From Geodermatophilus amargosae (GTDB lineage Bacteria; Actinomycetota; Actinomycetes; Mycobacteriales; Geodermatophilaceae): DNA of 64,000 nucleotides. Positions 6,342 through 58,828 of the stretch are shown here, one piece after another. The DNA lies in assembly GCF_900116515.1 (NCBI RefSeq), contig NZ_FPBA01000001.1:372001-436000 (forward strand), given 5' to 3'. Positions within the stretch are counted from its first letter, which is position 1; the number at the start of each line of letters is the position of its first letter. The notes under the pieces were generated by a model that worked only from the letters and a program-made list of their open reading frames with translations, was not told where the DNA came from and did not search any database. A program made the position numbers and the translations under genes.

Positions 6342-6347
6342 GCCGGA

Positions 6348-6366: not shown

Positions 6367-6391
6367 GCTGGATGGTGCCACTGTCTCTGCC

Positions 6392-43261: not shown

Positions 43262-43373
43262 AGGGCACGGCGGGGGGGTGACGGGTCCCCGCACGCCGTC
43301 CACACCCCTCCGGGTCATCCACAGGCCGCCGCCGCGCGGACCGGGTGCCTCGGCGGTGCGCTGGGCTCGGCGC

Positions 43374-44455
43374 GTGCTTCCGCCTCCCGTCCCCCCGCCG
43401 TCCCGCCCGCTGGTCGTCAGCGCCGACGAGGACCTGCTCGACGACGTCCTGCGCGTCCTGGCCGCCGCCGGCACGGAGGCGGAGGTCGCCACCGGCGGTC
43501 CGGCGCTGCGCCGCGCGCACCGCGAGGCCGGGCTGGTGCTCCTCGGCGCCGACGTCCTCGGCGCCGCGCCGGTCCGCGCGCTGCCGCGGCGCCCGGGCGT
43601 GGTCGTGGTCGCGGCGGGAGCGGTCCCGGCACCGGCGTGGGCCGCGGCGGTCGAGCTGGGTGCCGAGCGGGTCGCCGTCCTGCCCGACGACGAGGCGTGG
43701 CTGGCCGCCCGCGCGGGTGAGGCGGTGCGCTCCCCGGTGGACCGCGGCTGGCTCGCCGTCGTCGGGGGCGCCTGCGGCGGAGCGGGTGCGAGCACGCTGG
43801 CCACCGCCCTCGCCGTCGCCACCGCGGCCCGCGGCGAGGGCGTCCTGCTCCTCGACGCCGACCCGTGGGGCGGCGGGCTCGACCTGCTGCTCGGTGCCGA
43901 GGACGCCAAGGGCCTGCGCTGGCCGGCGCTGGCCGGTGTGCGCGGGAGGCTGGCCGGGGACGCGCTGCTCGCGGCCCTGCCCGAGGCCGCCGGCGTGCAC
44001 GTGCTGGCCGCCGCGCGCGACGAGCCGGCGCCGGTGGCCGCCGAGGCTCTCGCGGTGGTCGTCGAGGCCGCGCGCGGGTGCGGACTGGCCGTGGTGGTCG
44101 ACCTGCCGCGGGGCGCCGGGCCCGACCCCGCGGCCGAGGCGGTGCTCGCCGAGGCCGACCTCGCCCTGCTGGTCGTGCCCGCCGGCTGCGGGCTGCCTCG
44201 GCCGCGCGCTCCCTGATGGCCGCGGGTCCCTGGTCGGCGGCCCGGCTGGTGGTGCGCACCGTGCCCGGCGGCCTGTCGGCCGCGGAGGTCGCCGCCGTGA
44301 CCGGGTCCACGGTGCTCGCCGAGCTGGGGCACGACCGCGGCGCCCCGTCCCGCGGCGAGCGCGGTGAGCCGCCCGCGGTGGCGCCGCGCAGCCCGCTGGG
44401 CGCGGTGACCCGGCTTCTGCTCGGAGAACTCGCCCGGCCGGAGCGCGCGGCGTGA
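43374..44455 (+). pseudogene. ssd: Septum-site-determining protein Ssd / TadZ-CpaE-like ATPase, frameshifted
   Basis: Two frames combine to a protein of about 360 residues. The first has a receiver-like N-terminus (LVVSADEDLLDDVLRVLAAAG), then a MinD/CpaE-type P-loop region GGACGGAGASTLATALAV and VLLLDADPWGGGLDLLLG, up to ALLVVPAG. The second frame continues LRAASAARSLMAAG and ends at 44455, overlapping tadA by GTGA. One missing G near 44185-44186 explains the break. Because the downstream part is conserved and the tad genes look intact, a sequencing error or very recent mutation is more likely than old decay. GTG 43374 is the probable start; GTG 43278 is possible. Confidence 0.82.
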
Positions 44456-45591
44456 GCGGCCTGCCGCTGGTCGAGCGGGTGCGCGCCCGGCTGGCGCTGG
44501 AGTCCGGGCCGCCGAGCCGGGCTGCGGTCGCGGCCCTCGTGCGGGAGGAGGCCGGCCTGCTCGGGGAGACCGACGTCCTCGAGGCGGTGCGCGACGCGGT
44601 GTCCGAGCTGGCCGGCGCCGGGCCGCTCGAGCCGCTGCTGAGAGCGCCCGGCGTCACCGACGTGCTGGTCAACGGCCCCGGCGAGGTGTGGGTGGACCGG
44701 GGGACCGGCCTGGAGCCCGCGGACGTGCGCTTCCCCGACGAGGACGCCGTCCGCCGCCTGGCGGTGCGGCTGGCCGCCAGCGCCGGCCACCGGCTCGACG
44801 ACGCCGCGCCGTGGGTCGACGCCGGCCTGCCCGACGGCACGCGGCTGCACGCGGTGCTGCCCCCGGTGTCGGGCGGGGGCACCTGCCTGTCGCTGCGGGT
44901 GCTGCGCCGGTGCGCGCTGGACCTGGCCGACCTCGCCGCGCGCGGGACGCTGCCTGGGGACTCGGAGGCTCTGCTGCGGGCGGTCGTGCGCCGGCGGCTG
45001 GCCTTCCTGGTCACCGGCGGCACCGGGTCGGGCAAGACGACGCTGCTGTCGGCGCTGCTCGGGGAGGTGCCGCCGGGCGAGCGGATGGTGCTCTGCGAGG
45101 ACGCGCCGGAGCTCACCCCGGCGCACCCGCACGTGGTCCGGCTGCTCACCCGGCCGCCCAACGTGGAGGGCGCCGGCCAGGTGACGCTGCGCGACCTGGT
45201 GCGCCAGGCGCTGCGGATGCGGCCCGACCGGCTCGTCGTGGGGGAGGTGCGCGGCGCGGAGGTCACCGACCTGCTGGCCGCGCTGAACACCGGGCACGAC
45301 GGCGGCTGCGGCACCCTGCACGCCAACCGGCCGGCCGAGGTACCGGCGCGGCTGGAGGCGCTGGGCGTGGCCGCGGGCCTGGACCGGCGGGCCGTGCACA
45401 GCCAGGCCGCGGCCGCGCTCGCCGCCGTCGTCCACCTCCGGCGCACTCCGGAGGGCCGGCAGGTGGCCGAGGTCGGCGTGGTGCGCCGCGACGGCGACCT
45501 GGTCGCCGTGGACGCCGGCTGGCGGGCCGACGGAGGCCCGTGTCCGGGCGCGGACCGGCTGGCCGGCCTGCTCGACGGCGGTCCGGCGTGA
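44452..45591 (+). CDS. tadA: Tad secretion ATPase TadA/CpaF
   Basis: The hexameric ATPase powers assembly of Flp-type pili. The 379-residue protein has the N-terminal domain block LLRAPGVTDVLVNGPGEVWVDRG (residues about 63-85), an Asp box-like VLCEDAPELTP, Walker A FLVTGGTGSGKTTLLSALLG and Walker B-region RPDRLVVGEVRGAEV, then NTGHDGGCGTLHANRP with the His box. GTG 44452 overlaps the ssd stop, and its own stop overlaps tadB by GTGA, so ssd-tadA-tadB-tadC is one coupled unit. Confidence 0.94.
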   Translation: MSGLPLVERVRARLALESGPPSRAAVAALVREEAGLLGETDVLEAVRDAVSELAGAGPLEPLLRAPGVTDVLVNGPGEVWVDRGTGLEPADVRFPDEDAVRRLAVRLAASAGHRLDDAAPWVDAGLPDGTRLHAVLPPVSGGGTCLSLRVLRRCALDLADLAARGTLPGDSEALLRAVVRRRLAFLVTGGTGSGKTTLLSALLGEVPPGERMVLCEDAPELTPAHPHVVRLLTRPPNVEGAGQVTLRDLVRQALRMRPDRLVVGEVRGAEVTDLLAALNTGHDGGCGTLHANRPAEVPARLEALGVAAGLDRRAVHSQAAAALAAVVHLRRTPEGRQVAEVGVVRRDGDLVAVDAGWRADGGPCPGADRLAGLLDGGPA

Positions 45592-46385
45592 CCGCGGCGC
45601 TGGTGGCCGGCGCCCTCGCGCTGCTCGCCTGGCCCGGCGCGGCATCCCGGCGGCGGGAGCGACTGCGGCGGCTCGCGGGCGGACCGCGGGCGGCCGCAGC
45701 GTGGTCCGCGGCCGGCACCCCGGCCGCCTGGCCGGTCCTGGCCGGGGCAGCAGGGATGGTCGCGGGCGCGCTGGCCGGTCCGCTGCTGGTGGCCGTCCTC
45801 GCGGGGGCGGTCGCAGCGGGAGCGGCCCGTGCCGTGCTCCGGCAGCGCGAGGGTCACCGGGAGGAGGAGTCGCTCGAGGTCCTCGCCGATGCCCTCGCCG
45901 CGCTGGCCGCCGAGCTCCGCAGCGGCCGGCCGCTGGAGGCGGCCACCGCGTCAGCCGTGGCGGTCGTCCCCGATCCCGGAGCGGCGCGGGAACTCGCTCG
46001 TGCCCTGCGCGCCCCGGAGGCGGTCCCGGCGGAGGCGTCGTCGGAGCTCGGCCGGGCGCACGAGCGGCTCGCGGCGGCCGTGCGGCTCAGCAACCGCACG
46101 GGGTGCTCGCTCGCCGCCGTCGCCGGCGCGGTGGAGGACGACCTGCGCGCTCGCCGGCGTCAGCGCGACGAGCTGCGCTCGGCGACCGCCGGCCCGCGGG
46201 CGAGCGCCGCGCTGCTGGCCGGGCTGCCGCTGCTGGCGCTGGCGATGGGCGGCGGCATCGGCGCCCGTCCGTGGGCGGTGCTCACCACGACCGTCGTCGG
46301 CCAGGTGCTCCTCGTGGCCGGGGTGGCCCTGGAGGCCGCCGGGCTGGCCTGGTCGGCGCGGCTGGTCCGCCGGGCGCTGCGGTGA
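45588..46385 (+). CDS. tadB: Tad secretion inner-membrane protein TadB
   Basis: A 265-residue type II secretion F-domain protein. The N-terminal helices (ALVAGALALLAWPG; WPVLAGAAGMVAGALAGPLLVAVLAGAVAAG) are followed by a cytosolic four-helix F domain (LEVLADALAALAAELRSGRPLEAAT, then AHERLAAAVRLSNRTGCSLAAVAGAVEDDLRARRRQRDELRSATA). Two more helices (ASAALLAGLPLLALAMGGGIG; TTTVVGQVLLVAGVALEAAGL) end the chain. It is expected to form the platform for TadA. GTG 45588 overlaps the tadA stop and the tadC start overlaps its own stop. Confidence 0.9.
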   Translation: MTAALVAGALALLAWPGAASRRRERLRRLAGGPRAAAAWSAAGTPAAWPVLAGAAGMVAGALAGPLLVAVLAGAVAAGAARAVLRQREGHREEESLEVLADALAALAAELRSGRPLEAATASAVAVVPDPGAARELARALRAPEAVPAEASSELGRAHERLAAAVRLSNRTGCSLAAVAGAVEDDLRARRRQRDELRSATAGPRASAALLAGLPLLALAMGGGIGARPWAVLTTTVVGQVLLVAGVALEAAGLAWSARLVRRALR

Positions 46386-47095
46386 CGCAGGCCGGAGCGC
46401 TGCTGGCGGTCGCCGGTGCGCTGCTGGCGTGGCCGTCCCCGGGCGGGCGCCGCAGCGCCCGGCTGCACGCGGCGGGCATGCCGCGGACGCTTCGCAGGGC
46501 CGGGGCGGCCGGGCCGGCCCGGCGCCCGGTGCTGCCGGTCCTCGCCGGCCTGGGCGCGGCGCTGCTCGTCGGCGGCGAGACCGGGGTGGCGCTCGGAGCC
46601 GGGGTGGCGGTGCTCGCCGACCGGTGGCTGCGGCGGGTCCCCCGCGACGAGCCGGCCGCCGGTCACCTGGCCGCGGAGCTGCCGGTGGCGTGTGACCTGC
46701 TGGGTGTCTGCCTCGCCGCCGGGCTGACCGTGGGCGGCGCGCTGACCGCCGTCGCGACCGCGCTGCCCGGGCCGCTGGGGGACGCGCTGGCCGCCGTCGC
46801 CGGCCGGCTGCGGCTGGGCGCGGCGCCCCGCACGGCCTGGCACGACACGCCGCCGGAGCTGGCCGGGCTGGGCCGGGTCCTGGTCCGGGCGGGGGAGTCG
46901 GGAGCGGCGGCGGTGCCGCTGCTGCGCGGCCTCGCGGCGGAGGCACGGGCCGCGGCCCGCAGCCGCGCCGAGGCGGGGGTGCGCCGGGCCGGCGTCTGGG
47001 TGCTGGCCCCGCTGGGTCTGTGCTTCCTGCCGGCCTTCGTGTGCCTCGGGATCGCGCCGATGGTCATCGGCATCGCGGGCCAGGTCTTCGGGTGA
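46382..47095 (+). CDS. tadC: Tad secretion inner-membrane protein TadC
   Basis: The second F-domain platform protein, 237 residues. N-terminal hydrophobic segments (LLAVAGALLAWPSPGG; VLPVLAGLGAALLVGGETGVALGAGVAVLAD) lead to the cytosolic domain AELPVACDLLGVCLAAGLTVGGALTAVATALPGPLGDAL. The final helices are WVLAPLGLCFLPAFVCLGIAPMVIGIAGQVFG. In most actinobacteria the Flp/DUF4244 gene follows directly. Here the next 7.8 kb run on the opposite strand and the plus-strand series resumes at 55102. The stop is 24 bp from the convergent PIG-L gene. Confidence 0.9.
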   Translation: MTQAGALLAVAGALLAWPSPGGRRSARLHAAGMPRTLRRAGAAGPARRPVLPVLAGLGAALLVGGETGVALGAGVAVLADRWLRRVPRDEPAAGHLAAELPVACDLLGVCLAAGLTVGGALTAVATALPGPLGDALAAVAGRLRLGAAPRTAWHDTPPELAGLGRVLVRAGESGAAAVPLLRGLAAEARAAARSRAEAGVRRAGVWVLAPLGLCFLPAFVCLGIAPMVIGIAGQVFG

Positions 47096-47118: not shown

Positions 47119-47853
47119 TCAGCGGACGCGGACCGGCATCGACGCGGTGTGCGCCGGCACCAAGGACCACGCGGCCGGGACCGACGCGGGCACGGACCGG
47201 GCGGCGGGGGCGAGGTCGAGCACCATGCGCGTGGGCTGGAAGGCCTCGGCGTAACCGATCCGCGCCTGCGCGCCCCAGTGGCGGGCGGAGGCCACGATCG
47301 CGTCGGGCTCCACCATCGCCGAGCGCTCCACCTGCGAGGCGTGCGCGGCCAGGGCGGCCAGCTTGCCGCTGAGGTGGGCGGTCACGTCGACGTAGACGGT
47401 CGGCGCGAAGGTCAGCGTCGAGGGGCTCTGGTAGTGCAGCACCCGCGGCAGGCGGCGGGCCGCGCCCAGCGTGGCCGCGGCGACGGCGCGGTGGTCCTGG
47501 TGGCTGTCGTCGGGAGCGTGCACGTACACGAGGTCGGCGGCCGTGGCCTGCAGGACCTGCTCGACGCGGCGGATGGCGGCGGAGTCGGCCACGACCTCGC
47601 AGTCGCGCAGCCCGCCCCACACCACCGTGGCGCCGATGACGCCCGCCGCCCGCTCCTGCTCGGCGCGCCGGCCGATGCCCTGTGCGTCGTCGCCGGGGCC
47701 GTTCTCGCCGCCGGTCATCACCAGCATCGTCACCGTGTCGCCGGCCGCCACGTGCGCCAGCAGGGCGCCCCCGCAGCCCAGCTCGATGTCGTCGGGGTGC
47801 GCCCCGATGGCCAGGACGCTGCGTCCCGTGCTCCGCGTGCCTGCGCCGTCCAT
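47119..47853 (-). CDS. PIG-L/LmbE-family N-acetylglucosaminyl deacetylase
   Basis: The family removes acetyl groups from GlcNAc-containing molecules (GlcNAc-PI, GlcNAc-Ins, bacillithiol and mycothiol precursors, antibiotics) with a Zn2+ site. The 244-residue protein has the metal motif LAIGAHPDDIELGCGG (residues 15-30, AHPDD) and the second site PDDSHQDHRAVAAAT (HxDH). ATG 47853 gives a start just before the domain; the longer upstream frame lacks similarity. It is the last gene of the minus-strand insert in the Tad locus. Next to a UDP-GlcNAc 2-epimerase and a GT2 enzyme, action on an amino-sugar polysaccharide or its precursor is a reasonable inference. Confidence 0.88.
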   Translation of the reverse strand: MDGAGTRSTGRSVLAIGAHPDDIELGCGGALLAHVAAGDTVTMLVMTGGENGPGDDAQGIGRRAEQERAAGVIGATVVWGGLRDCEVVADSAAIRRVEQVLQATAADLVYVHAPDDSHQDHRAVAAATLGAARRLPRVLHYQSPSTLTFAPTVYVDVTAHLSGKLAALAAHASQVERSAMVEPDAIVASARHWGAQARIGYAEAFQPTRMVLDLAPAARSVPASVPAAWSLVPAHTASMPVRVR

Positions 47854-47982
47854 GGCCGCTGTCCCGTCCGTCCGGGGCGGTGGTCCCGCCTGTCGTCCTC
47901 CCATCGGCGGCCGCGGCCGCCCGCTCCACCCCGGCGACCGGCACCCCCCTCGATGGGGGGAGGACCGGTCGTGCACGACGTT

Positions 47983-48531
47983 TCAGTCCGCGGTGGCGGC
48001 CGCAGCGAGCGCCGCGCGGTGCTGCGTTCGGCGCTGGGCGAGCCACATGGAGCCCCCCGCGACGGCCCCCGAGGCGGCCAGCGCGATCACGATGCCCAGG
48101 CCGTTGCCGTCGGCCGGCAACTCGGTGGAGGCGGGGCAGGGGGTGCTGCGGTCGCGGTAGGCGGTGACGCGCCGGTCTCCGAGCTCCCACTGGATGCTCG
48201 AGTACCCCGACGGGACGCTCACCGAGAAGGCGCCCTGGTACGCCCCCGGCCGGAAGGTCTCGATCTGGGGACCGTTGAAGCGGTCGGGGTCGAAGTCGTT
48301 GTCGCCGCCCCGGCGCACGGTGAGGGCCGACGACGACGTGTTCGTGTAGCCGAAGACCGCCGTCCAGGAGCCGTTCGGGGCCTGCTGGACGCAGGTCACC
48401 GTCGGGGTGAGCGGGTCGCCGGTGGCCATCGCCGGCCCCGGCGTCGCGAGCACCACCGCGGCGCCGATCCCGGCGGTCACCGCCAGCCGCGTCCTCAGCG
48501 ACGGTCGTGCCCGCCGCGTGCTGCCTGCCAT
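47983..48531 (-). CDS. Secreted protein with an LPADG-hydrophobic-Arg C-terminal tail
   Basis: The 182-residue protein has a signal peptide (TRLAVTAGIGAAVVLATPGPAMA, cleavage near residue 36). A single beta-rich extracellular domain follows (VTCVQQAPNGSWTAVFGYTN; FRPGAYQGAFSVSVPSGYSSIQWEL). The C-terminus is tripartite: LPADGNGLG, a hydrophobic span IVIALAASGAVAGGSMWLA and the basic stop QRR. That layout is shared by sortase and exosortase substrates. LPADG is not the standard LPxTG, and an exosortase-like gene lies in the same minus-strand block, so this is its best visible candidate substrate (inference). GGAGG lies upstream of ATG 48531. A damaged tandem paralogue is next to it. Confidence 0.8.
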   Translation of the reverse strand: MAGSTRRARPSLRTRLAVTAGIGAAVVLATPGPAMATGDPLTPTVTCVQQAPNGSWTAVFGYTNTSSSALTVRRGGDNDFDPDRFNGPQIETFRPGAYQGAFSVSVPSGYSSIQWELGDRRVTAYRDRSTPCPASTELPADGNGLGIVIALAASGAVAGGSMWLAQRRTQHRAALAAAATAD

Positions 48532-48676
48532 GCCAGGCCTCCTCTCGTCCGGTGGGGCGCACCTCGCCCACCGGAGGGCCATCGGCCGGTCCGGGGGACG
48601 GGTGGAGGCGGGCGCGCGGGCCGTCACCCGGAGGAGGGGCCCCGGCGGCGGCCCCGCGACGTCCTGCGCGGGCGGC

Positions 48677-49218
48677 TCAGGTCGCCGACGCCGCGGCGGT
48701 GACCTGCGCGGGATCGCGGCGCCGCCGCGCGACCCACGCCGACCCGCCCGCGACCGCGCCCGAGGCGACCAGCGCGATGACCATGCCGAGGCCGTTGCCG
48801 TCGGCCGGCAGCGGCGTCGAGGCGGGCACCGCGGGCTGCTGTCCCGGCGCGCGATCCCGTACATCCCGAGGACCTGCCACTGCACGGCCGACACCGAGGA
48901 CGGGACACGCACGGAGAACGCGGCCTGCCGGGTCCCCGACGAGAAGCGCGTGACCTGCTGACCGTCGAACCGGTCCGGGGTCATGTCGTTGTTGCTCCCG
49001 CGGGCCACCGAGAACGCCTACGACGTCGTGTTCGTGTAGCCGAAGGCCGCCGTCCAGTAGCCGTCCTGGACCGGCGTCACGCAGGTGACCAGCGGCCGCA
49101 CCCAGCCGTAGTGCGCGCTCGCCGGCCAGGGCGTGCAGAGGACCACGGCGAGGGCGACCGTGGCCACCACCGCGAGACGTGTCCCGCGCGGCCCCCGCCG
49201 TCCCGCGTCGCCTGCCAT
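48677..49218 (-). pseudogene. Broken tandem paralogue of the LPADG-tail secreted protein
   Basis: From ATG 49218 the frame gives a signal peptide (LAVVATVALAVVLCTPWPASA), then PLVTCVTPVQDGYWTAAFGYTNTTS. It meets a TAG at 49018-49020, where the intact neighbour has Ser. Reading on gives the rest of the domain (GTRQAAFSVRVPSSVSAVQWQVLG). A second lesion near 48821-48826 (one missing base) shifts into the tail STPLPADGNGLGMVIALVASG. One stop substitution plus one frameshift make this a real pseudogene by sequence. The upstream stretch (49221-49330) resembles that of the neighbour (48541-48640), so the duplication of about 680 bp included the 5' region. Confidence 0.82.
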
Positions 49219-49331
49219 GTGGACCCCTCTGACCGGGGCCTCCGCCGGCCCCACCGTGGGGCCATCGGACGGGCCGGGCGGCGGGTGCAGGCGACAGGGA
49301 CCGGGGGTCACCCGCGGAGGGAGCCGGGTGG

Positions 49332-50069
49332 TCAGCCGGCGACGGCCACCGGGGCTCTCAGGACGGCCAGCGCCAGGGCCGCGGCGGAGGGGAGGTCCCC
49401 GGTGACCGCCCAGGCGGCCGGGTCGTCGACGGCCGAGGAGTACTCGCCCCGCCGCACGCGGATCGCCCGGGCGCCCACCGCGGCCGCGACCGCGACGTCC
49501 TTGCCCGGCCGGTCACCGATGACCAGCACCCGGTCGGCAGGCACACCGAGCCGAGCGGCCAGCACCCGCAGCCCCTCCGGAGCCGGCTTGCGGGACGCCC
49601 GGCCGCCGAGCGTGTCGGTGACCAGCACCTCGGACAGCAGCGGGAGCAGGCCCGTTGCGGCGAGCTTGGCGTCCTGGATCACCGGGTTGCCGTCGGTCAG
49701 GCAGCCCACCGGCACGACCGCGCCGAGCGCCGCCAACGCCTCCGGGACACCCGGGTAGGTCGGGAGCGACGCCGGCACGTGAGCGGTGAACGCGGCGACC
49801 AGCGGCGGCACCAGGATCGGCAGGTCGCCGGCCGGCACGCCCGCGGCCAGCAGCGCGCGGTCGATCGTGCCGCCGCGGTCGGAGCCGGCCGCCAGCTCCC
49901 GGACGAGCGCGGCGTGCACCGCTGGGCCGTCCAGGCCCGCTTCCGTGGCGGCCGCGCCCACGTCGGCCGCGGCGCCGGCCAGGTAGGCCGCCTGTGGGTA
50001 CAGCGTGTCGTCGAGGTCGACCACCACCGCCAGCGGCGGGAGGCCGTCCCAGGTCGGCGCCGCCGTCAC
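49332..50069 (-). CDS. HAD-family hydrolase, last gene of the exosortase operon
   Basis: The 245-residue protein is a HAD subfamily IA phosphatase: motif I AVVVDLDDTLYPQAAYL (residues 14-30; the second Asp of DLDDT is the acid/base), motif II VPVGCLTDGNP, motif III Lys in SRKPAPEGL and motif IV LVIGDRPGKDVAVAAAVG. The substrate is unknown; a sugar phosphate made by the preceding gene set is plausible. GTG 50069 overlaps the 2-epimerase stop by GTGA, so the two are coupled. Confidence 0.88.
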   Translation of the reverse strand: MTAAPTWDGLPPLAVVVDLDDTLYPQAAYLAGAAADVGAAATEAGLDGPAVHAALVRELAAGSDRGGTIDRALLAAGVPAGDLPILVPPLVAAFTAHVPASLPTYPGVPEALAALGAVVPVGCLTDGNPVIQDAKLAATGLLPLLSEVLVTDTLGGRASRKPAPEGLRVLAARLGVPADRVLVIGDRPGKDVAVAAAVGARAIRVRRGEYSSAVDDPAAWAVTGDLPSAAALALAVLRAPVAVAG

Positions 50070-51217
50070 CACGGCAACCGGCCGTCGGTGAAGTCGGGCT
50101 CCGTGATGGCCAGCAGCGCGTCGGTCGCCGCGTCGGCGAGCAGCGCGGCCACCTGCGGGCCGGTCGTGCCGTCGCCGTAGGGACAGGGGAGGGCGGCCGC
50201 GCGGGCCTGCCCCTCCGCGCTGGTGTGCCGGGCGGCGGCGGCGAGGACGGCGTCGGCGGCGGAGTCGTCGGCGAGCCCGGCCAGGGTCGTCGTGCCGGCC
50301 TCCACGCCCTCCCACCGGGGCGTCGAGCCGCGCAGGACGACGACGGGGACGCCCAGGAACGCCGCCTCCTCCTGGATCCCCCCGGAGTCGGTGACCGCGA
50401 GCCGCGCCGAGGCGAGCGAGGCCAGCAGCGAGTCGTAGCCGACCGGGCCGGTCAGCGTGATCGCCGGGTGCTCGAGCTCGGCGTCCAGGCCGGTGGCCGC
50501 GAGCCGCGCCGCGGTGCGCGGGTGCACCGGGAAGGTGACCGGCCCGACCTCGTCGGCCAGCGCCCGGACGACGCCGACCAGCCGCTTGAGCCGCACGGGG
50601 TCGTCGACGTTGGTCGGGCGGTGCGCGGTCACCAGCACGCCGCGCCGCTGCGCCACCGGCACCGGCCGGACGCCCCGGGCCACGAGCGTGTCGACCACCG
50701 GGTTGCCGACGACGAACACCCGCTCGGCGGGCACGCCCTCGGCGACGAGGAACGCCGCGGCCCGCCGGGTGGGCGCCAGGTGCAGCGCGGCGACCGCCGC
50801 GGCCACCCGCCGGTTGACCTCCTCGACGCTGCGCGGGTTGAGGCTGCGCAGGCCGGCCTCCAGGTGCGCGAACGGCACGCCGGCGCCGCGGGCGGCCAGC
50901 GCGTAGGCGGGGACGGTGTTCGTGTCGCCCAGGGCCAGCACCAGGTCGGGCCGGAACCGCGCCACGGCGCGCGCCGCGTCGGCGTGCAGCGCCCCGTACC
51001 GCGCGGCCGGGTCGTCGGTGGGCAGGCTGAACCGGCACGTGGGCGCCAGCCCGAGCGTCTCCTGCAGGCGTGTGGACAGGTCCGGGTCGGTGTGCTGGCC
51101 GGTGTCGACGACGTCGACCCGGTGCCCCGCCGCGATCAGCGCCGTGACCACCGGGGCGAGCTTCACGACCTCCGGCCGGGTGCCGAAGGGGACGAGGACG
51201 TGCCGCGCGCGGCTCAC
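50066..51217 (-). CDS. UDP-N-acetylglucosamine 2-epimerase (WecB-like)
   Basis: The enzyme interconverts UDP-GlcNAc and UDP-ManNAc, supplying ManNAc for envelope polymers. The 383-residue GT-B-fold protein shows VPFGTRPEVVKLAPVV (residues 8-23), LVLALGDTNTVPAYALAARGAGVPFAHLEAGLRS (parts near 94-127), VTAHRPTNVDD and the UDP-binding end VTDSGGIQEEAAFLGVPVVVLRGSTPRWE. GTG 51217 overlaps the ATP-grasp stop and its own stop overlaps the HAD gene. Coupling to an exosortase and GT2 suggests a ManNAc-containing exopolysaccharide or glycan (inference). Confidence 0.92.
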   Translation of the reverse strand: MSRARHVLVPFGTRPEVVKLAPVVTALIAAGHRVDVVDTGQHTDPDLSTRLQETLGLAPTCRFSLPTDDPAARYGALHADAARAVARFRPDLVLALGDTNTVPAYALAARGAGVPFAHLEAGLRSLNPRSVEEVNRRVAAAVAALHLAPTRRAAAFLVAEGVPAERVFVVGNPVVDTLVARGVRPVPVAQRRGVLVTAHRPTNVDDPVRLKRLVGVVRALADEVGPVTFPVHPRTAARLAATGLDAELEHPAITLTGPVGYDSLLASLASARLAVTDSGGIQEEAAFLGVPVVVLRGSTPRWEGVEAGTTTLAGLADDSAADAVLAAAARHTSAEGQARAAALPCPYGDGTTGPQVAALLADAATDALLAITEPDFTDGRLPW

Positions 51218-52278
51218 GCCCGCACCGCCGTGGCGGCGCAGGGGTCGGCCACCGCACTGCCGTCGTCGGCCGTGTAGGTCTCGGCGAAGTAGCGGCTCAT
51301 CCGCACCCCCGGGGTGAACCACAGGTGGGGGAGGACGGCACGCCGGTCGCGGATGCCGGTCAGGTACGCGCTGACGACGTCGGCGCCCGCGGCCAGGGTC
51401 AGCGGCAGCCCGCCGGAGAAACGCGGGTTGACCTCGACGACGGTCGCCCGGCCGTCGTCGGCCACGAACCCCTGCACGTTGGCCGGGCCGGTGAGCTGCA
51501 CCGCCTCGAGCGCGGCGGCCACGACCGTGGTCACCTCGGCCGAGTCGAAGGTGGTGCCCTTCACCGAGATGCCGGCGCGGGTGTCGTCGCGCCAGCGCGG
51601 GACGACGGTGACCAGCTCGCCGTCGCGGCCGACGAGGGCGTCAGCGGTGAACTCGCGGCCCGACAGCCGGGTCTGGGTGATGAGCGCGGGGTCGGCGTGC
51701 ATCGCCTCGACGACGTCGGCGCGGGAGTCCAGCAGGCGCACGCCGCGGCTGCCCCGGCCGGCGCGGGGCTTGACGACCCAGGGGCCGGGGACGGTAACGA
51801 GGCCGGCGGGGGTGTCGGTGGTCGCGGGGTGCGGCACACCGGCGGTGCGCAGGGCGCGGGCGAAGGCGGCCTTGTCACAGCACACCTCGACGGCGGCCGG
51901 GTCGGGCAGCCAGGTGGCCACACCGGCCGCGGCGAGCCGGTCGGCGCCCGCGGCGAGGGCGGGCAGCTCCTCGGCGACGGTGCCGATGAGGGCGTCGGCG
52001 CCGTGCGCGGTGGCCAGCGCCAGGAGGGCGTCGACGAAGCGGACGTGGTCGGCGCGCGGGACGACCGCGCCGACGGTGGCCAGCGCCGCGCCGGCCGCGG
52101 TCGCGTCGGCGTCCACCCCGACGACGCGGTGACCCAGCGCGGTCAGCCGGCGGACGACGGCGACGCCGGCCGGGCCACCGGCGCCGGTGACGAGCACTGC
52201 GGGCCGGCCGGGGCGGTCCCGCTCGTCGGGCAGCGGAGGGACGGGCGAGGTCGTCCGGCTCGGCAGGGTCGAGGTCAC
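51214..52278 (-). CDS. ATP-grasp ligase
   Basis: A 354-residue protein. A Rossmann-like N-domain (AVLVTGAGGPAGVAVVRRLTALGHRVVGVD, in part) is followed by an ATP-grasp fold: CCDKAAFARALRTAGVPHP (lid helix), GPWVVKPRAGRGSRGVRLL (ATP-binding Lys), the central ADALVGRDGELVTVVPR and the metal-binding end RATVVEVNPRFSGGLPLTLAAG (Glu and Asn ligands). It resembles CarB-like and PylC-like ligases that join a carboxylate to an amine. The product is unknown; it could decorate a sugar or peptide of the locus. GTG 52278 overlaps the exosortase-like gene stop. Confidence 0.87.
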   Translation of the reverse strand: MTSTLPSRTTSPVPPLPDERDRPGRPAVLVTGAGGPAGVAVVRRLTALGHRVVGVDADATAAGAALATVGAVVPRADHVRFVDALLALATAHGADALIGTVAEELPALAAGADRLAAAGVATWLPDPAAVEVCCDKAAFARALRTAGVPHPATTDTPAGLVTVPGPWVVKPRAGRGSRGVRLLDSRADVVEAMHADPALITQTRLSGREFTADALVGRDGELVTVVPRWRDDTRAGISVKGTTFDSAEVTTVVAAALEAVQLTGPANVQGFVADDGRATVVEVNPRFSGGLPLTLAAGADVVSAYLTGIRDRRAVLPHLWFTPGVRMSRYFAETYTADDGSAVADPCAATAVRA

Positions 52279-53471
52279 CGGGGCGTCTCCGGGGGGTGCG
52301 GGGGAGTGGACGGGCGGGCGAAGCTGGCCGGGCCCGGGGACCCGGCGGCGTGCGGGCGGCGGTCCGGCGGGGGCGGTGTGGTCCCGGCGGCCGGCGTCGC
52401 CGGCGGCACCGGGATCCGGGCCACCGCGACCGGGGCGCCGTCGTCGACGGCGGCGCTGTCGGGCACCGGGGAGGAGGTGCCGGCCGTGGGCCGCGCCAGC
52501 AGCCAGCCGCGCGCCCACAGCCGCAGGGCGGTCACCCGGTGGTCGGTCACCGGCTCCCACTGGCGGGCGGCGACGGCGTCGGCGAGGGCGTCGAGGACGA
52601 CCGGGTCGGTCTCGTAGGTGGCCACGGCGACGAGCGAGGCGCTGTGCGCGCCGAGGCCGTCGGCGGCCAGCTCGCGGACCCGCTCGACCCGCCGGTAGGC
52701 CGGCACGTGCCCCAGCCGGTAGTCGACGCGGGCGGCCTCGCGGCGGGCGGCCAGCCAGGCGGAGAGCCGACGGGGCAGGACGTGGCGGTGCAGCAGCCCG
52801 GTCACCGTCGTCCGCCGGCGGCGGAGCCCGGTCTCCTCGGCCGCCACGGTGCGGTAGCCCAGCCCCGGCCGCGCCCAGCTGTCGGGACGGCGGGCGGTGT
52901 GCCGGCCCTCGACGTCCTGCTCGGCCCGCTCGGCGGCCGGGAGGGTGATCCACACCATGACCAGGAAGCCGAGGAGCGTGGCGACCAGGTTCCAGACGGT
53001 GCCGACCCAGTCGTGGAAGAGGACCAGGGCGCCCTCACCCCAGTGCAGACCGGCCAGGGCCGACAGCAGCAGCCGGCCGTGGTTGAGCACGACGACGGCG
53101 ACGATCGCGACCGCCAGGCCGCCGAGCGCGTGCAGCTTTCGCCCGCGCAGGATGACCGCGGTCAGGGCGACCAGGCCCAGGACGGACAGGATCGACGAGC
53201 ACGACGCCGTGACGACCGCGTCGATGATCTCGTCGTCGCCGCGGAACAACAGGATGTGGCCGGGCAGCACGCCCGAGGACCACGCCGGGTCGATCCAGCC
53301 GAGCACAAGGGCGACGCCACGGGCATCGAGGACCTGCAGCGGCCCGGACAGCGTGGCGAAGCCGACGATGCAGATCACCCCGACCAGCGCGAGGTCGAGC
53401 ACGACCGGCAGCAGCCGCTGCGTCGTCCCGCGGGAGAGCCGTCGCCGCCCGACGGCGGGTGCGGTGGTCAC
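52275..53471 (-). CDS. Exosortase-like membrane transpeptidase with a long C-terminal extension
   Basis: The 398-residue protein has about six to eight membrane helices in its first 210 residues and the exosortase catalytic order. Cys is in VTASCSSILSVLGLVALT (about residue 92), Arg in VVVLNHGRLLLSALAG (about 131) and His in LFHDWVGTVWNLVATLLGF (about 152). Exosortases cut a C-terminal sorting tail and anchor the protein outside. I believe actinobacteria have a class of this kind (an XrtP-type name comes to mind, unverified). The C-terminal 190 residues are soluble, Arg/Ala-rich and unusual in length. The gene is translationally coupled to the GT2 and ATP-grasp genes. Confidence 0.78.
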   Translation of the reverse strand: MTTAPAVGRRRLSRGTTQRLLPVVLDLALVGVICIVGFATLSGPLQVLDARGVALVLGWIDPAWSSGVLPGHILLFRGDDEIIDAVVTASCSSILSVLGLVALTAVILRGRKLHALGGLAVAIVAVVVLNHGRLLLSALAGLHWGEGALVLFHDWVGTVWNLVATLLGFLVMVWITLPAAERAEQDVEGRHTARRPDSWARPGLGYRTVAAEETGLRRRRTTVTGLLHRHVLPRRLSAWLAARREAARVDYRLGHVPAYRRVERVRELAADGLGAHSASLVAVATYETDPVVLDALADAVAARQWEPVTDHRVTALRLWARGWLLARPTAGTSSPVPDSAAVDDGAPVAVARIPVPPATPAAGTTPPPPDRRPHAAGSPGPASFARPSTPPHPPETPR

Positions 53472-54880
53472 CGGTCCTCCCCGGGGAGTGCGAAGGAGGG
53501 GGGCCGCGCGGCGGGCTCGGTCGCGGCGGGTGCGGGGGCGGGGACGGCGGGGGCCAGGACCGTCGAGGTGGCGCCCGAGCGCGTGGTCTTCACCCAGCTG
53601 TAGGGCCGGCCGAGCATCCCGTCGAGGTAGGCGCGCGAGGTGATCCAGATCGACAGGGCGAAGGCCGGCAGGAAGCCCAGCAGCCGCCAGGCCGAACGAC
53701 GCTCCACACGGCCGACCAGCAGGCCGACGCACAGCTCGGCGAGCGGGCCGATAAACAACAGCATCGACAGCGGTAGCAGCCCGATCACCGGCAGGTCGCC
53801 GACGCCCAGCGCCCGCAGGACGGTGAGCAGCAGGCCCAGTCCGCTGAGCACCGGCACGTGGTAGACGCCGAGGAACAGCGTCGTCTCCACCTTCTCCAGC
53901 AGGGAGAGGTGCGGCGAGCGCATGAGCGGACGCCAGTAGTCGCGCAGGCACTTCTGGTGACCGCGGGCCCAGCGGTAGCGCTGCTTCCAGAACCGCTGCG
54001 CGCTGACCACCGCCTCCTCGAAGTCGATGGCCGAGACGTCGTAGCGCACCCACTGGCCCATCAGCAGGATGCGCAGGGTCAGGTCGGTGTCCTCGGTGAC
54101 CGTCTCGGGGTTCCACCCGCCGAGCGCGCGCAGCGTGGAGGCCCGGACGGCGCAGTTGGCGCCGCCGTAGGCGGGCAGCTCGAACAGCGCCTGCCGGCCG
54201 TACTCGTTGACGAGGTAGCCGGACAGGTAGTCGACGAAGACCGTGCTGGCCATGGAGGAGTCCTGGCCGTTGCGGATGACGCAGCGGCCCATGACCGCGG
54301 CGACGACGGGGTCGCGGAAGTGCCGCACCAGCCGGCGCAGCGCCGACGGCTCGGGCTCGTGGTCGGCGTCGAAGACCAGCACGATCTCGGACTCGACGAG
54401 GGCCAGCGCCTCGTTGAGCGCGCCGGACTTGCCCCCGCCGGCTCCCGGTGGCCGGTGCAGCACACGCAGCCGCGGGTCGCGGACGGCCCAGGCGTCGAGC
54501 TTGGCGCCGGTCGCGTCGGCCGAGCCGTCGTCGACGACGACGAGGGTGAGCCGGTCGGCCGGGTAGTCCAGCGCCAGCAGCGCCGCGACCATCCCGTCGA
54601 CGACGAGTTCCTCGTCCTTGCATCCGACGAGGACGGCGACCGTCGGTGTGTAGCTGTCCAGCCCGACGTCGGCGGCCACCAGGTCGCGCTCGGCCCAGCG
54701 GGCGGCGGCGACGGCGAAGGCGAGGTGCCGGCAGAAGTAGATGCCGAACACCACGTTGAGCGCACCGGCGACGACACCCAGCGTGCGGTCGAAGCCGAAC
54801 AGGACGGCGGCGCCCGCGAAGGCGACGGCGTAGCCGACGAGCACGAGCGGCCGGCCCTCGGGGCGGTCGGGATGTGCCAC
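53468..54880 (-). CDS. Processive GT2 glycosyltransferase (cellulose/hyaluronan synthase-like)
   Basis: The 470-residue membrane enzyme has two N-terminal helices (LVLVGYAVAFAGAAVLFGF; GVVAGALNVVFGIYF) and a GT-A domain with TLVVVDDGSADATG, VLVFDADHEPEP (DxD), ETVTEDTDLTLR (TED) and the processivity motif FWKQRYRWARGHQ (QxxRW). C-terminal helices (LGVYHVPVLSGLGLLLTVL; LPLSMLLFIGPLAELCVGLLV) form a channel in this family. It should polymerise and extrude a polysaccharide from UDP-sugars. GTG 54880 has GGAGGAGG upstream. It is the first gene of the minus-strand operon in the Tad insert, divergent from the flp-like gene by 221 bp. Confidence 0.92.
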   Translation of the reverse strand: MAHPDRPEGRPLVLVGYAVAFAGAAVLFGFDRTLGVVAGALNVVFGIYFCRHLAFAVAAARWAERDLVAADVGLDSYTPTVAVLVGCKDEELVVDGMVAALLALDYPADRLTLVVVDDGSADATGAKLDAWAVRDPRLRVLHRPPGAGGGKSGALNEALALVESEIVLVFDADHEPEPSALRRLVRHFRDPVVAAVMGRCVIRNGQDSSMASTVFVDYLSGYLVNEYGRQALFELPAYGGANCAVRASTLRALGGWNPETVTEDTDLTLRILLMGQWVRYDVSAIDFEEAVVSAQRFWKQRYRWARGHQKCLRDYWRPLMRSPHLSLLEKVETTLFLGVYHVPVLSGLGLLLTVLRALGVGDLPVIGLLPLSMLLFIGPLAELCVGLLVGRVERRSAWRLLGFLPAFALSIWITSRAYLDGMLGRPYSWVKTTRSGATSTVLAPAVPAPAPAATEPAARPPSFALPGEDR

Positions 54881-55101: not shown

Positions 55102-55398
55102 GTGACCGCCGACCCCGTGACCGCCGACCACCCGACCGCCGACCACCCGACCGCCGAACACCCGACCGCCGAGGCCCCGACCACGGGCGCCCCGTCCGCT
55201 GGGCGATCCGGCCGGCTGAGCGGCCGGTGGGCGCGGGTCCGCGCCACCGCCGAGGCGGGCATGAGCACCGCGGAGTACGCCGTCGGGACGGTGGCGGCGT
55301 GCGCCTTCGCCGCCGTCCTCTACCGGGTGGTGACCGGCGGCTCGGTCGTCACCGCGCTGGGCGATCTCGTCGACTCCGCGCTCGGGGTCCTGTCCTGA
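55102..55398 (+). CDS. DUF4244/Flp-like pilin of the Tad system
   Basis: The 98-residue protein begins with tandem repeats of VTADP/HPTAD, then a basic stretch (SGRLSGRWARVRATA). A prepilin-like segment follows: EAGMSTAEYAVGTVAACAFAAVLYRVVTGGS, with the Glu5-like Glu of AEYA, cleaved after Gly in Flp proteins. The hydrophobic helix (AVGTVAACAFAAVLYRVV) is the pilus core. This DUF4244 type is the usual Flp homologue in actinobacterial Tad loci. AGGAGG lies 5 bp before GTG 55102. It resumes the plus-strand Tad series after the insert. Confidence 0.85.
   Translation: MTADPVTADHPTADHPTAEHPTAEAPTTGAPSAGRSGRLSGRWARVRATAEAGMSTAEYAVGTVAACAFAAVLYRVVTGGSVVTALGDLVDSALGVLS
55104..55178 (+). repeat. Five 15-bp tandem repeats in the flp-like 5' end
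   Basis: Five units of 15 bp (gaccgccgaccaccc and close variants) encode the five-residue TADHP-type repeats before the pilin domain. They lengthen the cytosolic leader, in-frame, and are expected to vary in number. Confidence 0.85.
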
Positions 55399-55442
55399 CC
55401 GCGCGGCGAGCCCGGGAGCCGGCCGACCGGGGGGAGGCCGGG

Positions 55443-55775
55443 ATGGTCACCGCCGAGACCGCCGTCGTGCTGCCGGTCCTGCTGCTGGTGCTCGCGGCCG
55501 TCGTCTCCGCCGTCGTGGTGGTCGGTGCCCACCTGCGCTGCGTGGACGCTGCGCGGGAGGGCGCCCGCGCGGCGGCCCGCGGCGAGGACGCGGCGCAGGT
55601 CCGAGCGCTGGCGGCGCGGACGGCTCCCGAGGGGGCGGTGACCGCGGTCGCCGTCGCGGGGGAGGAGGTGCGGGTCACCGTCAGCGCGCGGGTGCCGCCC
55701 CTGGGCGTCGGGCCGGCCGTCGCGGTCGGGGCGAGTGCGGTCGCGCGTCTGGAGCCGGGAGCGGTCCCGGGATGA
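55443..55775 (+). CDS. TadE-like pseudopilin
   Basis: A 110-residue protein whose first residues, MVTAETAVVLPVLLLVLAAVVSAVVVVGA, are the short leader and single helix of a TadE-type minor pilin (the Glu of TAE fits the pilin Glu5 role). The rest is a small extracellular domain (CVDAAREGARAAARGEDAAQVRALA, then VTVSARVPPLG). GGGAGG lies 7 bp before ATG 55443. The same frame extends upstream (EPADRGEAGM) to the end of the flp-like gene, so a CTG start near 55395 is possible. Its stop overlaps the next gene by ATGA. Confidence 0.82.
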   Translation: MVTAETAVVLPVLLLVLAAVVSAVVVVGAHLRCVDAAREGARAAARGEDAAQVRALAARTAPEGAVTAVAVAGEEVRVTVSARVPPLGVGPAVAVGASAVARLEPGAVPG

Positions 55776-56149
55776 GGACGCGCGGGCTCCGGGGAGCGGC
55801 GGCCGAGCGCGGGTCGGCGACGGTCTGGACGGTGGCCCTGGCCGGCGTGCTCGCGGTCGTCGGGCTGGCGGCGGTCCTGGTCGGCGCGGCGGCCGTCGCC
55901 CGCCACCGCGCCGGGTCCGCCGCCGACCTCGCCGCCCTCGCCGCCGCGGCGCGGGCCGCCACCGGCGACCCCGCCGCGTGCCCGGCCGCCGCGCAGGTCG
56001 CGGCGGCCAACGGCGCCACCCTCACCGACTGCACGGTCGGTGAGGGCGCGGTCGTCGACGTGCGGGTGGCCGTCACCGTCCCGCTCGGTCCGCTGGGCAC
56101 CCGCCGGGCCGAGGCCCTCGCCCGCGCCGGGCCGGTTCCGCCGGAAGCC
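55772..56149 (+). CDS. TadE-like/Rv3654c-type secretion-neighbourhood protein, no stop codon near its expected end
   Basis: ATG 55772 starts a protein with TadE-like features: RGSATVWTVALAGVLAVVGLAAVLVGAAAVARHRAGSAADLAALAAA (parts of residues 13-60), Cys in DPAACPAAAQ and TDCTV, and an end VAVTVPLGPLGTRRAEALARAGP. Family proteins stop here at about 120-130 residues. This frame stays open to a stop at 57845-57847, antisense to the helicase, giving 691 codons. I therefore end the feature at the helicase stop and treat the tail as read-through or a lost stop codon. It is coupled to the TadE-like gene by ATGA. Confidence 0.7.
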
Positions 56150-58828
56150 TCAGAAGACCAGGTCGTCCTCGACGTGCCCGCCGCCCGCGTCGGCGGGAGC
56201 ATCCGGGGTGGGCGGGTCCCCGCCGACGTCCTCCTCCGGGCCGGCCGGCCGGCCGACGCCGGGCCGCCGCAGCAGGCCCCGGACCGGACCGGTCGGCATG
56301 ACGTGGGTCGGGACGTCCTCGCCGTCGTCCCCACCGTCGTCGGTGTCCCCGGCCCCGTGCCCGGCCGCGTCCTCGGCCGTGGCCAGCTCGTCGAGGACGA
56401 CGTCGAGCACGCGCACCGCGCCGGCCTTGTCCAGCGGGTCGTTGCCGTTGCCGCACTTCGGCGACTGCACGCAGGAGGGGCAGCCGCTCTCGCACTCGCA
56501 GCTGGACACGGTGGCCCGGGTGGCCCGCACCCACCGCCGCAGCGCCGCGTACCCGCGCTCGGAGAAGCCCGCGCCGCCCGGGTGCCCGTCGTAGACGAAC
56601 ACCGTCGCGGTGCCGGTGTCGGGGTGCAGCGCGGTCGACAGCCCGCCGAGGTCCCAGCGGTCGCAGGTGGCCAGCAGCGGCAGGATCCCGATCGAGGCGT
56701 GCTCGGCCGCGTGCAGCGAGCCGGGCAGCGCCAGGTCGTCGACGTCCGCGCGGGCCACCGCGTCGGCGTCGAGGGTCAGCCAGACCGCGCGGGTGCGCAG
56801 CTGGCGCGGCGGGAGGTCCAGGGGGAACTCCGCGAGCACCTCGCCGGTGCCGGCCCGCCGCCGCTGGTAGGCCACGACCTGGTTGGTGACGTCGACGACG
56901 CCGGTGTGTGCGGTGACCGTCCCCAGCCGGCGGGTCCGCTCGATGGTCACGATGGACAGGTCGGTGACGTCGCGGGCCACGGTGGTCCACTCCGGGCTCT
57001 CGGCGTGCACGACCGCGCAGGCGTCCTCGGGGTCGAACTCGTCGACGACGAAGGTCTCGCCGCGGTGCACGTAGAGCGCGCCGGCGTGCACGGTCGAGTG
57101 CGCCGCCCCGCCGTCGACGGTGCCCAGCAGCCGGCCGGTGTCGCCCTCGATGATCGCCACGGGCTCGCCGCCGCTGCCGCGGATGTCAACGTCGGGTCGC
57201 CCGCGGCCGGCCCAGTACCAGCCGGCCGGGCGCCGCCGCAGGTCCCCGGCGGCGACGAGCTCCTCGAGCCGGGCCTCGGCCACCGGGCCGCCGAAGTCGG
57301 GCAGGTCCTCCGGGGTCAGCGGGAGCTCGGCGGCCGCCGAGCACAGCTGCGGGCCGAGGACGTAGGGGTTGGCGGGGTCGGTGACGGTGGCCTCGACCGG
57401 CCGGCCGAACACCGCGCGCGGGTGGTGGGCCAGGTAGTGGTCCAGCGGGTCGTCCCGGGCCACGAAGACGACGAGGGACTCGCGCTGGGCGCGCCCGGCG
57501 CGGCCGGCCTGCTGCCAGAGGGAGGCCAGCGTGCCCGGGTAACCGGCGAGCACCACGGCGTCGAGGCCGGCGATGTCGATGCCGAGCTCGAGGGCGTTGG
57601 TGGTGGCCACGCCGAGCAGGTCACCCGCGGACAGCGCGCGCTCGAGCTCGCGGCGCTCCTCGGGCAGGTAGCCGCCGCGGTAGGAGTCGACCCGCCGGGT
57701 GAGGTCGCTGCGGCCGCGGTCGGCCAGCAGCCGGCGGGCCTGCTCGGCCACCGTCTCCGCGCTGCGCCGCGACCGGACGAACGCCAGCGTGCGGGCGCCG
57801 CGCTCGACCAGGTCGGCCAGCAGTCCGGCGGTGTCCGCGGCCGCTGACCGGCGCAGCGGCGCACCGTGCTCGCCGGTGTGCTCCGTCAGCGGGGGTTCCC
57901 ACAGCGCGAAGGTGGCACCCGGGCGCGGCGAACCGTCGTCGGTGACGGCGACGACCGGCGCCCCGACCAGCCGGGTCGCCGCCGCGGCCGGCTCGGCCAC
58001 GGTCGCCGAGGCCAGGACGAACACCGGGTCGGCCCCGTAGCGGCGGCAGATGCGGCGCAGCCGCCGCAGCACGTGCCCGACGTGGGAGCCGAACACCCCG
58101 CGATAGGCGTGGCACTCGTCGATGACGACGTAGGCCAGCCGGCGCAGGGTCGACGACCAGCGCTGGTGGGCCGGCAGCACACCGCGGTGCAGCATGTCCG
58201 GGTTGGTGACGATCCACCGCGAGTGGCGGCGCACCCAGTCGCGCTCCTCGGCGGGGGTGTCGCCGTCGTAGGCCGCCGGCCGCACCGACGGATCGGCGAG
58301 GGCGGCCACCGAGGCCAGCTGGTCGCGTGCCAGGGCCTTGGTCGGGGCGAGGTAGAGGACGCAGGCGCGCGGGTCCTCCACGAGGCGGGTGAGCGCCGAC
58401 AGCTGGTAGGCCAGCGACTTGCCCGACGCGGTGCCCGTGGCCACCACGACCGAGGTGCCGTCGTGGGCGAGCTGGGCGGCCTCGACCTGGTGCCGCCACG
58501 GCTCGCGCACGCCCTGCTCGACCAGTCGCTCGCGCAGCGCCGGGTCCACCCACTCCGGCCAGGGCAGCGTCCGGCTCTGGCGCACCGCCAGCCGGTGCAC
58601 GTGGGTGACCGGGGACTCCTCCTCGGCGGTGCCGGCCAGCAGGTCCTCGAGGAGCTCCGCCCCGGGCGGCACGTTGCCCGGGGACACCGCGGCCGACCCG
58701 TGCGCGGCGGCCGACCCGTGGACGGCCGGGGCGCCGCCCGCCCGCGCCTCCCGGGACGCGTCACCCCCCGATGACCCCTCGCGGCCGGATGGGGGAGCAG
58801 CCGGCCGGACCGGGTGGAGCGTGGTCAC
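56150..58828 (-). CDS. DEAD/DEAH-box helicase with DUF1998 C-terminal domain
   Basis: This 892-residue superfamily 2 helicase has motif I ATGTASGKSLAYQL (about residue 129), Ia LYLAPTKALARDQL, II VVIDECHAYRG (DECH), III LASATVAEP, V TTNALELGIDIAGLD and VI QQAGRAGRAQ. The MZB/DUF1998 end contains the Cys cluster CECESGCPSC and SPKCG, a probable zinc site. Related actinobacterial proteins (Rv3649-like) are thought to act in DNA repair (mitomycin responses). The family is always next to the Tad genes in these bacteria, without a known functional tie. Residues 835-892 are acidic and low-complexity. ATG 58828 faces hppA across 200 bp. Confidence 0.92.
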   Translation of the reverse strand: MTTLHPVRPAAPPSGREGSSGGDASREARAGGAPAVHGSAAAHGSAAVSPGNVPPGAELLEDLLAGTAEEESPVTHVHRLAVRQSRTLPWPEWVDPALRERLVEQGVREPWRHQVEAAQLAHDGTSVVVATGTASGKSLAYQLSALTRLVEDPRACVLYLAPTKALARDQLASVAALADPSVRPAAYDGDTPAEERDWVRRHSRWIVTNPDMLHRGVLPAHQRWSSTLRRLAYVVIDECHAYRGVFGSHVGHVLRRLRRICRRYGADPVFVLASATVAEPAAAATRLVGAPVVAVTDDGSPRPGATFALWEPPLTEHTGEHGAPLRRSAAADTAGLLADLVERGARTLAFVRSRRSAETVAEQARRLLADRGRSDLTRRVDSYRGGYLPEERRELERALSAGDLLGVATTNALELGIDIAGLDAVVLAGYPGTLASLWQQAGRAGRAQRESLVVFVARDDPLDHYLAHHPRAVFGRPVEATVTDPANPYVLGPQLCSAAAELPLTPEDLPDFGGPVAEARLEELVAAGDLRRRPAGWYWAGRGRPDVDIRGSGGEPVAIIEGDTGRLLGTVDGGAAHSTVHAGALYVHRGETFVVDEFDPEDACAVVHAESPEWTTVARDVTDLSIVTIERTRRLGTVTAHTGVVDVTNQVVAYQRRRAGTGEVLAEFPLDLPPRQLRTRAVWLTLDADAVARADVDDLALPGSLHAAEHASIGILPLLATCDRWDLGGLSTALHPDTGTATVFVYDGHPGGAGFSERGYAALRRWVRATRATVSSCECESGCPSCVQSPKCGNGNDPLDKAGAVRVLDVVLDELATAEDAAGHGAGDTDDGGDDGEDVPTHVMPTGPVRGLLRRPGVGRPAGPEEDVGGDPPTPDAPADAGGGHVEDDLVF

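Follow-up and report, generated by a model that had tools for sequence, protein, structure and literature searches.

The PEP-CTERM/exosortase (EpsH) systems of Gram-negative bacteria combine, as far as the sources drawn on here describe them, a membrane enzyme, a tripartite C-terminal signal and a link to sugar-polymer genes. In one proposal, exosortases attach the cleaved protein to a compound yet to be identified (a passage in PMC7468200), and the acceptor is spoken of elsewhere as "some new moiety" (in part of PMC11980579) or as the outer membrane, a polysaccharide, or both (in part of PMC12188702). In actinobacteria, the XrtP system consists of exosortase P (NF012139), a glycosyltransferase (NF053846) and choice-of-anchor P (CoaP) substrates (NF040603/NF053845). 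This system is the closest catalogued relative of the locus analysed in this study, a cassette of seven minus-strand genes in a 64,000-nucleotide stretch of the Geodermatophilus amargosae genome (contig NZ_FPBA01000001.1, positions 372,001 to 436,000; referred to as the window). In our reading, to which we give a probability of roughly 0.55, the cassette encodes a self-contained exosortase system that would be dedicated to one kind of substrate, a tail-anchored small secreted protein (TAP), and for which its sugar enzymes would build an amine-bearing acceptor.

The seven genes lie between tadC (ending at 47095, plus strand) and the DUF4244 flp gene (55102-55398, plus strand). Read along the minus strand, they encode a membrane-associated GT2 glycosyltransferase with a processive-type signature (DDGS, DADH, TEDTD, QRYRW; 53468-54880; PF00535/PF13641), an exosortase/archaeosortase-superfamily protein (52275-53471; TIGR04178), an ATP-grasp carboxylate-amine ligase-like protein with a PylC-like N-terminal domain (51214-52278; PRK12767/PF15632/PF02655), a WecB-type non-hydrolysing UDP-GlcNAc 2-epimerase (50066-51217; TIGR00236, PF02350), a HAD-family phosphatase-like protein (49332-50069; PF00702), the intact TAP (47983-48531; identified by sequence features and a structure model) and a PIG-L-type zinc de-N-acetylase (47119-47853; PF02585). 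The family names that the original prediction had given to these genes and to flp (PF14029) agree with our family scans. The 4-bp overlaps it had reported among the five core genes were found, exactly, at each of the four junctions from GT2 through exosortase, ATP-grasp and WecB to HAD, and the TAP and PIG-L genes do not overlap their neighbours.

TAP is very likely the substrate of the exosortase, and this pairing is well supported by co-occurrence, by proximity and by a conserved motif, helix and basic tail. The window TAP has a Sec-type signal (judged by eye), an Ig-like beta-sandwich (residues 41-125), the motif LPADGNGLG (138-146), a tail helix and an Arg-rich end. Its structure model (mean pLDDT 80.5, with blocks of the beta domain at 93-98) gives the same Ig-like beta-sandwich and a long tail helix. 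In an alignment of 35 TAP rows, P139, N143, G144 and two cysteines are invariant, and the motif reads [LMV]PxxGNG or, in the Klenkia TAPs and one Blastococcus TAP, [LM]PxxANG, with no PEP-CTERM-type PEP motif before the tail helix. Considering all 49 TAPs encoded in cassettes, 47 carry P-x-x-[G/A]-N-G followed by a membrane helix and a basic tail. TAP is therefore a partner of the kind expected for the superfamily, with motif, membrane helix and basic tail. When the 45 cassette loci described below were scanned for open reading frames (ORFs) with P-x-x-[GA]-N-G, a hydrophobic stretch and a basic end, 47 ORFs in 40 loci were obtained, all of them TAPs.

The presence of TAP follows that of the exosortase. 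Among the best candidates scored in each of 41 genomes, TAP was found in all 19 same-genus genomes having the exosortase; by coordinates, the two genes lie no more than about 5 kb apart in 18 of these. Among the same candidates, no TAP was found in the six same-genus genomes that lack the exosortase or in 16 further genomes, two of which (G029 and G035) have an exosortase of another or an unexamined kind. Of 150 genomes drawn from the order, 12 matched the TAP profile, and 11 of these carry the cassette; the twelfth match (G170) is partial and falls in a collagen-like protein without a sorting tail. In that genome, two adjacent secreted-looking collagen-repeat proteins are encoded at about 4956-6480 of the fetched stretch L173, one of them matching part of the TAP profile. 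Five genomes (G000, G003, G010, G017 and G019) have a TAP gene elsewhere than in the cassette, each encoding the motif; it is an extra copy in four of them and the sole TAP in G003, at G003:C12:467765. The one in the window's own genome, G000 (G000:C38:818-1213; L102), is intact and has an MPVEGNG tail.

The original prediction had counted two tail-anchored secreted proteins here; one is intact, as given above, and the upstream copy (about 48677-49218, minus strand) is a pseudogene, broken by an in-frame TAG (49018-49020) and a frame change, with its profile-matched pieces (49155-48817 and 48850-48701) in different frames. By eye, the readable start of the broken copy is like the single TAP of locus L009; the intact copy is like that of the Blastococcus locus L017 (60%). 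These different likenesses suggest substrate turnover.

Because LPADG/LPATG resembles LPXTG, and because some sources label TAP homologues "LPXTG cell wall anchor", we considered whether an ordinary sortase of class E/F might handle TAP as an LPXTG-like substrate, with the exosortase-like protein serving glycan assembly. One of the 35 TAP members does match the LAETG sortase-substrate model (E 0.004). However, 40 of the 41 genomes have classical sortases, among them all six same-genus genomes that lack TAP. The distribution of sortases does not follow that of TAP, which goes with the cassette. The LPXTG models TIGR01167 and PF00746 gave no match for the window TAP; among the 35 members, TIGR01167 matched just two at E ≤ 1 (best 0.043) and PF00746 weakly matched three (best 0.07). 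The [LM]PxxANG form found in Klenkia and one Blastococcus is unlike LPXTG. We therefore regard this explanation as quite improbable. The window TAP has no Pfam or NCBIfam match at all at E ≤ 0.1, and the 35 members give only scattered weak family matches, the best being to DUF3995 in one member (E 0.0016).

The exosortase-like protein scores 32.9 bits against TIGR04178 (cut-off 23), which places it in the superfamily, and C91, N130, R133 and H153 are identical in 46 of 46 sequences; we take C91, R133 and H153 to be its catalytic residues. Its AlphaFold2 model has a mean pLDDT of 78.7. The segment past the membrane core (about residues 180-325) is a highly conserved domain, presumably cytoplasmic. 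A single open frame spans the exosortase and the ATP-grasp protein in 14 of 44 loci: eight loci of Actinoplanes, Micromonospora, Spirilliplanes or Pilimelia, three metagenome-assembled genomes (MAGs), and L030, L031 and L035. Fusion proteins of this kind, 666-742 amino acids long, are also present in the protein database. As the fusion occurs in both carrier groups, a direct working link between the two enzymes is suggested.

One genome per species, from 84,980 species, was scanned with two peptides of the exosortase C-terminal domain, and this gave 45 loci with the cassette set, from Geodermatophilaceae, Micromonosporaceae and MAGs. The carriers are Geodermatophilus, Blastococcus, Modestobacter, Klenkia, Trujillonella, Goekera, Actinoplanes, Micromonospora, Spirilliplanes, Pilimelia and actinobacterial MAGs, the named genera belonging to these two families. 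With the window proteins as tblastn queries, GT2 was found in 45 of the 45 loci, ATP-grasp and PIG-L in 44 each, WecB and HAD in 43 each, and TAP in 40. Contig ends truncate three loci (L015, L039 and L052). L053 has its exosortase in two pieces, and a profile search subsequently revealed its divergent TAP, which is encoded on the opposite strand. This brings TAP to 41 of the 42 uncut loci, the exception being L011 of G. saharensis (G003), whose TAP is the one located elsewhere. Three main gene orders were seen: GT2 through HAD, then TAP and PIG-L; TAP and PIG-L, then GT2 through HAD; and PIG-L, then GT2 through HAD and TAP. When all ORFs of the 45 loci were clustered and judged by the positions of cluster representatives, every flanking family, the core and shadow frames of the core aside, was confined to at most 10 loci. 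The seven genes might nevertheless be merely co-transcribed, a chance neighbourhood of separate pathways without joint function, and the placement within the Tad locus described below, which is found in only six of 25 genomes and is not required for the set, fits such a view. Recurrence in 45 loci despite variable flanks and three main orders, together with the fusion, exceeds what a chance neighbourhood would give, and we consider this alternative very improbable. The proposal that the genes form one machine is thus supported, and the core genes are indeed conserved together elsewhere.

As in the cassette, the exosortase gene of ten XrtP-like loci from the same order (L157-L161, L165, L166, L171, L172 and L174) is accompanied by genes for a GT2, adjacent to it, and for a WecB-like epimerase; L159 has in addition, beside these genes, a CoaP substrate that bears a C-terminal tail. 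The WecB-like gene of these loci is beside GT2 and near the exosortase, and its product is 36-41% identical to the window WecB. Models for the exosortase, GT2 and CoaP of the XrtP system are named in NCBIfam, where we saw none for the epimerase role. In an exosortase subtype scan that covered some of the ten loci, L158 passes the XrtP cut-off, and the top match of L157 and L161 is XrtS, at scores under its cut-off; the GT2 of L166 is below its own cut-off. Both a cassette and an XrtP-like locus are carried by G094 and by G135. The cassette differs from the XrtP system in enzyme type, substrate and motif, and adds PIG-L, ATP-grasp, HAD and the conserved exosortase C-terminal domain; none of the three added enzymes was found at E ≤ 1e-3 in the stretches fetched of the ten XrtP-like loci. 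The WecB-like gene in these loci suggests that an epimerised amino sugar may be general to actinobacterial exosortases. Compared with PEP-CTERM systems, the cassette has one dedicated substrate family, LPxxGNG instead of PEP, a Gram-positive host and the ATP-grasp fusion. To our knowledge, no sugar cassette is known for the archaeosortase ArtA of the PGF-CTERM system, which shares with the cassette the TIGR04178 superfamily (also matched in archaeal control genomes) and, on our proposal, cleavage and membrane anchoring. A difference is that ArtA is reported to serve lipid anchoring in haloarchaea (PMC7157517).

Active-site-type residues are intact in all six cassette enzymes. For GT2, the best NCBIfam model is TIGR03937 (PgaC; 117 bits, under the cut-off of 422), and the cut-offs of NF053846 (XrtP-associated glycosyltransferase; 86.9 versus 520) and TIGR03111 (XrtG-associated; 49.2 versus 363.95) are not reached; D118, D171, D173, T262-E-D, Q300, R303 and W304 are identical in 46 of 46 sequences. 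The same holds for ATP-grasp K170, G174-R-G-S-R178, E209, D213, E282 and N284-PRFSGG. WecB exceeds the epimerase cut-off (TIGR00236, 226.4 bits versus 210.15; PF02350, 268 bits) and keeps GTRPE, GDT and DSGG-x-QEE in 46 of 46. The HAD protein (PF00702, 63 bits; TIGR02253, 60.8 bits, under its cut-off of 169.75) keeps DLDDT, TDG, RKP and G185-D in 46 of 46, and PIG-L (PF02585, 82.5 bits; TIGR04001 BshB1, 90.8 bits, under its cut-off of 182.5) has H19-P-D-D and H118-Q-D-H121 in 45 of 45.

Type IX secretion, the sortase of which is PorU, offers an analogy for how these enzymes might serve the exosortase. According to PMC7468200, the cargo of type IX secretion is attached through an amide bond to an amino sugar bearing Ser or Gly on its 2-amine (a 2-N-aminoacyl sugar), the linking sugar being proposed to undergo de-acetylation by VimE and amino-acid addition by VimA. 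The T. forsythia linking sugar is described there as a mannuronic acid, an epimerase for it being predicted but untested, and a similar sugar is put forward by the authors, as speculation, for exosortases (PMC7468200). The likeness to the cassette would lie in the joining of a surface-protein C-terminus to an amino sugar and in de-acetylation followed by amino-acid addition, as proposed for the cassette. The enzymes are non-homologous, CE4-like VimE and acyltransferase-like VimA versus PIG-L, ATP-grasp and exosortase, and neither a VimA-like acyltransferase nor a VimE-like CE4 deacetylase was found in family scans of the seven cassette proteins. By analogy, we infer that the cassette follows the linking-sugar logic of the Wbp/Vim pathway of type IX secretion with unrelated enzymes.

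On this basis, TAP would be exported by Sec and held in the membrane through its C-terminal helix. The exosortase (Cys91/Arg133/His153) would then cut it at or near LPxxGNG and move the new C-terminus onto an amine-bearing acceptor, for which an amino sugar made by the cassette is our favoured candidate, by a modest margin over even odds. WecB would provide a 2-epimerised amino sugar, such as UDP-N-acetylmannosamine (UDP-ManNAc) or similar; GT2 would put it onto a membrane carrier or chain; PIG-L would strip the N-acetyl group, exposing an amine; ATP-grasp may be the enzyme that joins an amino acid or other carboxylate to this amine, yielding the reactive acceptor; and HAD would take off a phosphate in the route. 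The assignment of acceptor acylation to ATP-grasp is tentative, its odds being somewhat short of even. Still more speculative is a single "charge and transfer" machine made up of the exosortase and the ATP-grasp linked to it, in which cytoplasmic ATP-grasp would acylate the PIG-L-exposed amine of a ManN-type glycolipid, and the aminoacyl-sugar amine would be the exosortase nucleophile for the TAP C-terminus. Alternatively, the exosortase may process TAP while the sugar enzymes make a separate surface glycan (poly-N-acetylglucosamine (PNAG)-like or ManNAc-containing) that TAP merely binds, TAP being released or lipid-anchored and not joined to the cassette sugar. However, the ATP-grasp-exosortase fusion argues for direct coupling. 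Polymer deacetylases of PNAG systems have an export signal, whereas no signal peptide was seen by eye in PIG-L. We consider a separate glycan unlikely, if a more serious contender than an ordinary sortase.

Several points weigh against our reading of the cassette as a dedicated exosortase system. The enzyme scores 21.6 bits against PF09721, just under the cut-off of 25.7, and below every subtype cut-off (XrtP NF012139, 14.7 versus 200; XrtS NF033767, 38.1 versus 145; XrtR NF012138, 26.2 versus 150). Two of the 49 cassette TAPs are off motif: the first copy of L040 has GNS, and that of L053 (= L168), the most distant cassette TAP, has PVPVVGSAAG before the helix. The absences of TAP are not absolute, as at most 90 candidates per genome in the 41-genome search, and at most 24 in the 150-genome draw, were scored. 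As the scan peptides come from the exosortase C-terminal domain, relatives without this domain would be missed, and its conservation is partly due to selection. In addition, related genomes in the counts are not independent of one another. The ten XrtP-like loci without PIG-L or ATP-grasp indicate that these are not needed by every exosortase, and the substrates of PIG-L, ATP-grasp and HAD are not readable from sequence. The cassette also has no flippase or polymerase. Of the combined amino-sugar polysaccharide and surface-protein anchoring system first suggested, the amino-sugar and anchoring parts are the best-supported reading; a polymer would go beyond it.

The cassette splits the Tad locus between tadC and the flp-like gene, as re-checked coordinates confirm. 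On the plus strand, the upstream half (43278-47095) comprises ssd, tadA (44452-45591), tadB (45588-46385) and tadC (46382-47095), and the downstream half (55102-56150) comprises the DUF4244 flp gene (PF14029, 80.4 bits), tadE and a tadE-like gene, the last two names being labels of the original prediction backed by a look at the sequence only. DUF4244 was matched in 40 of 41 relatives. Among 25 same-genus genomes (G016 was left out of the examination and G020 gave no DUF4244 match), tadC is followed by flp without the cassette in 16, about 0.8 kb separating the two matches in G001, G005 and G006. Only six, the window's own genome (G000) and five close relatives (G003, G009, G010, G017 and G019), have the cassette there. 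In other genera of the order, tadC adjoins flp in eight of ten fetched flp loci, and the remaining two had no tadC match inside the approximately 1.5 kb fetched. The cassette starts about 3.8 and 5.6 kb past tadE in G001 and G023, respectively, and lies about 36 kb away from flp in G004. Its position inside the Tad locus is thus derived, in support of the proposed insertion, and is not an arrangement shared by nearly all relatives. In G011, tadC and flp are separated by about 3 kb that is not the cassette (L112 6293-9251), and the gap may accept insertions repeatedly.

In a tree of TadA, TadB, Ssd and a helicase, the six genomes plus G001, G005, G006 and G023 form one clade (support 1.000). 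Support for the six as a group is 0.600 by host genes and 0.008 by cassette genes, and a single insertion event is therefore not established. The Tad-gene tree places the window with G009 and G017 (1.000), whereas the cassette tree places it with G010, G003 and G019 (1.000). This conflict suggests cassette exchange between species at the same site, for which replacement through homologous recombination would be the simplest reading. No plasmid record matched the cassette, so the idea of a mobile cassette is retained only in respect of this exchange.

Within seven genes of soil bacteria that are in culture, the cassette unites an exosortase, a probable substrate belonging to one main family, and enzymes that are candidates for making the acceptor. 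Such a compact set with one small substrate protein makes the question of the exosortase acceptor testable. If our reading is true, LPxxGNG and its variants would be a new C-terminal sorting signal, and amine-on-sugar protein anchoring would be extended to Gram-positives. Should the "charge and transfer" proposal also be true, the cassette would be an exosortase system carrying the whole pathway for its own acceptor, and an acceptor class of bacterial exosortases would be identified.

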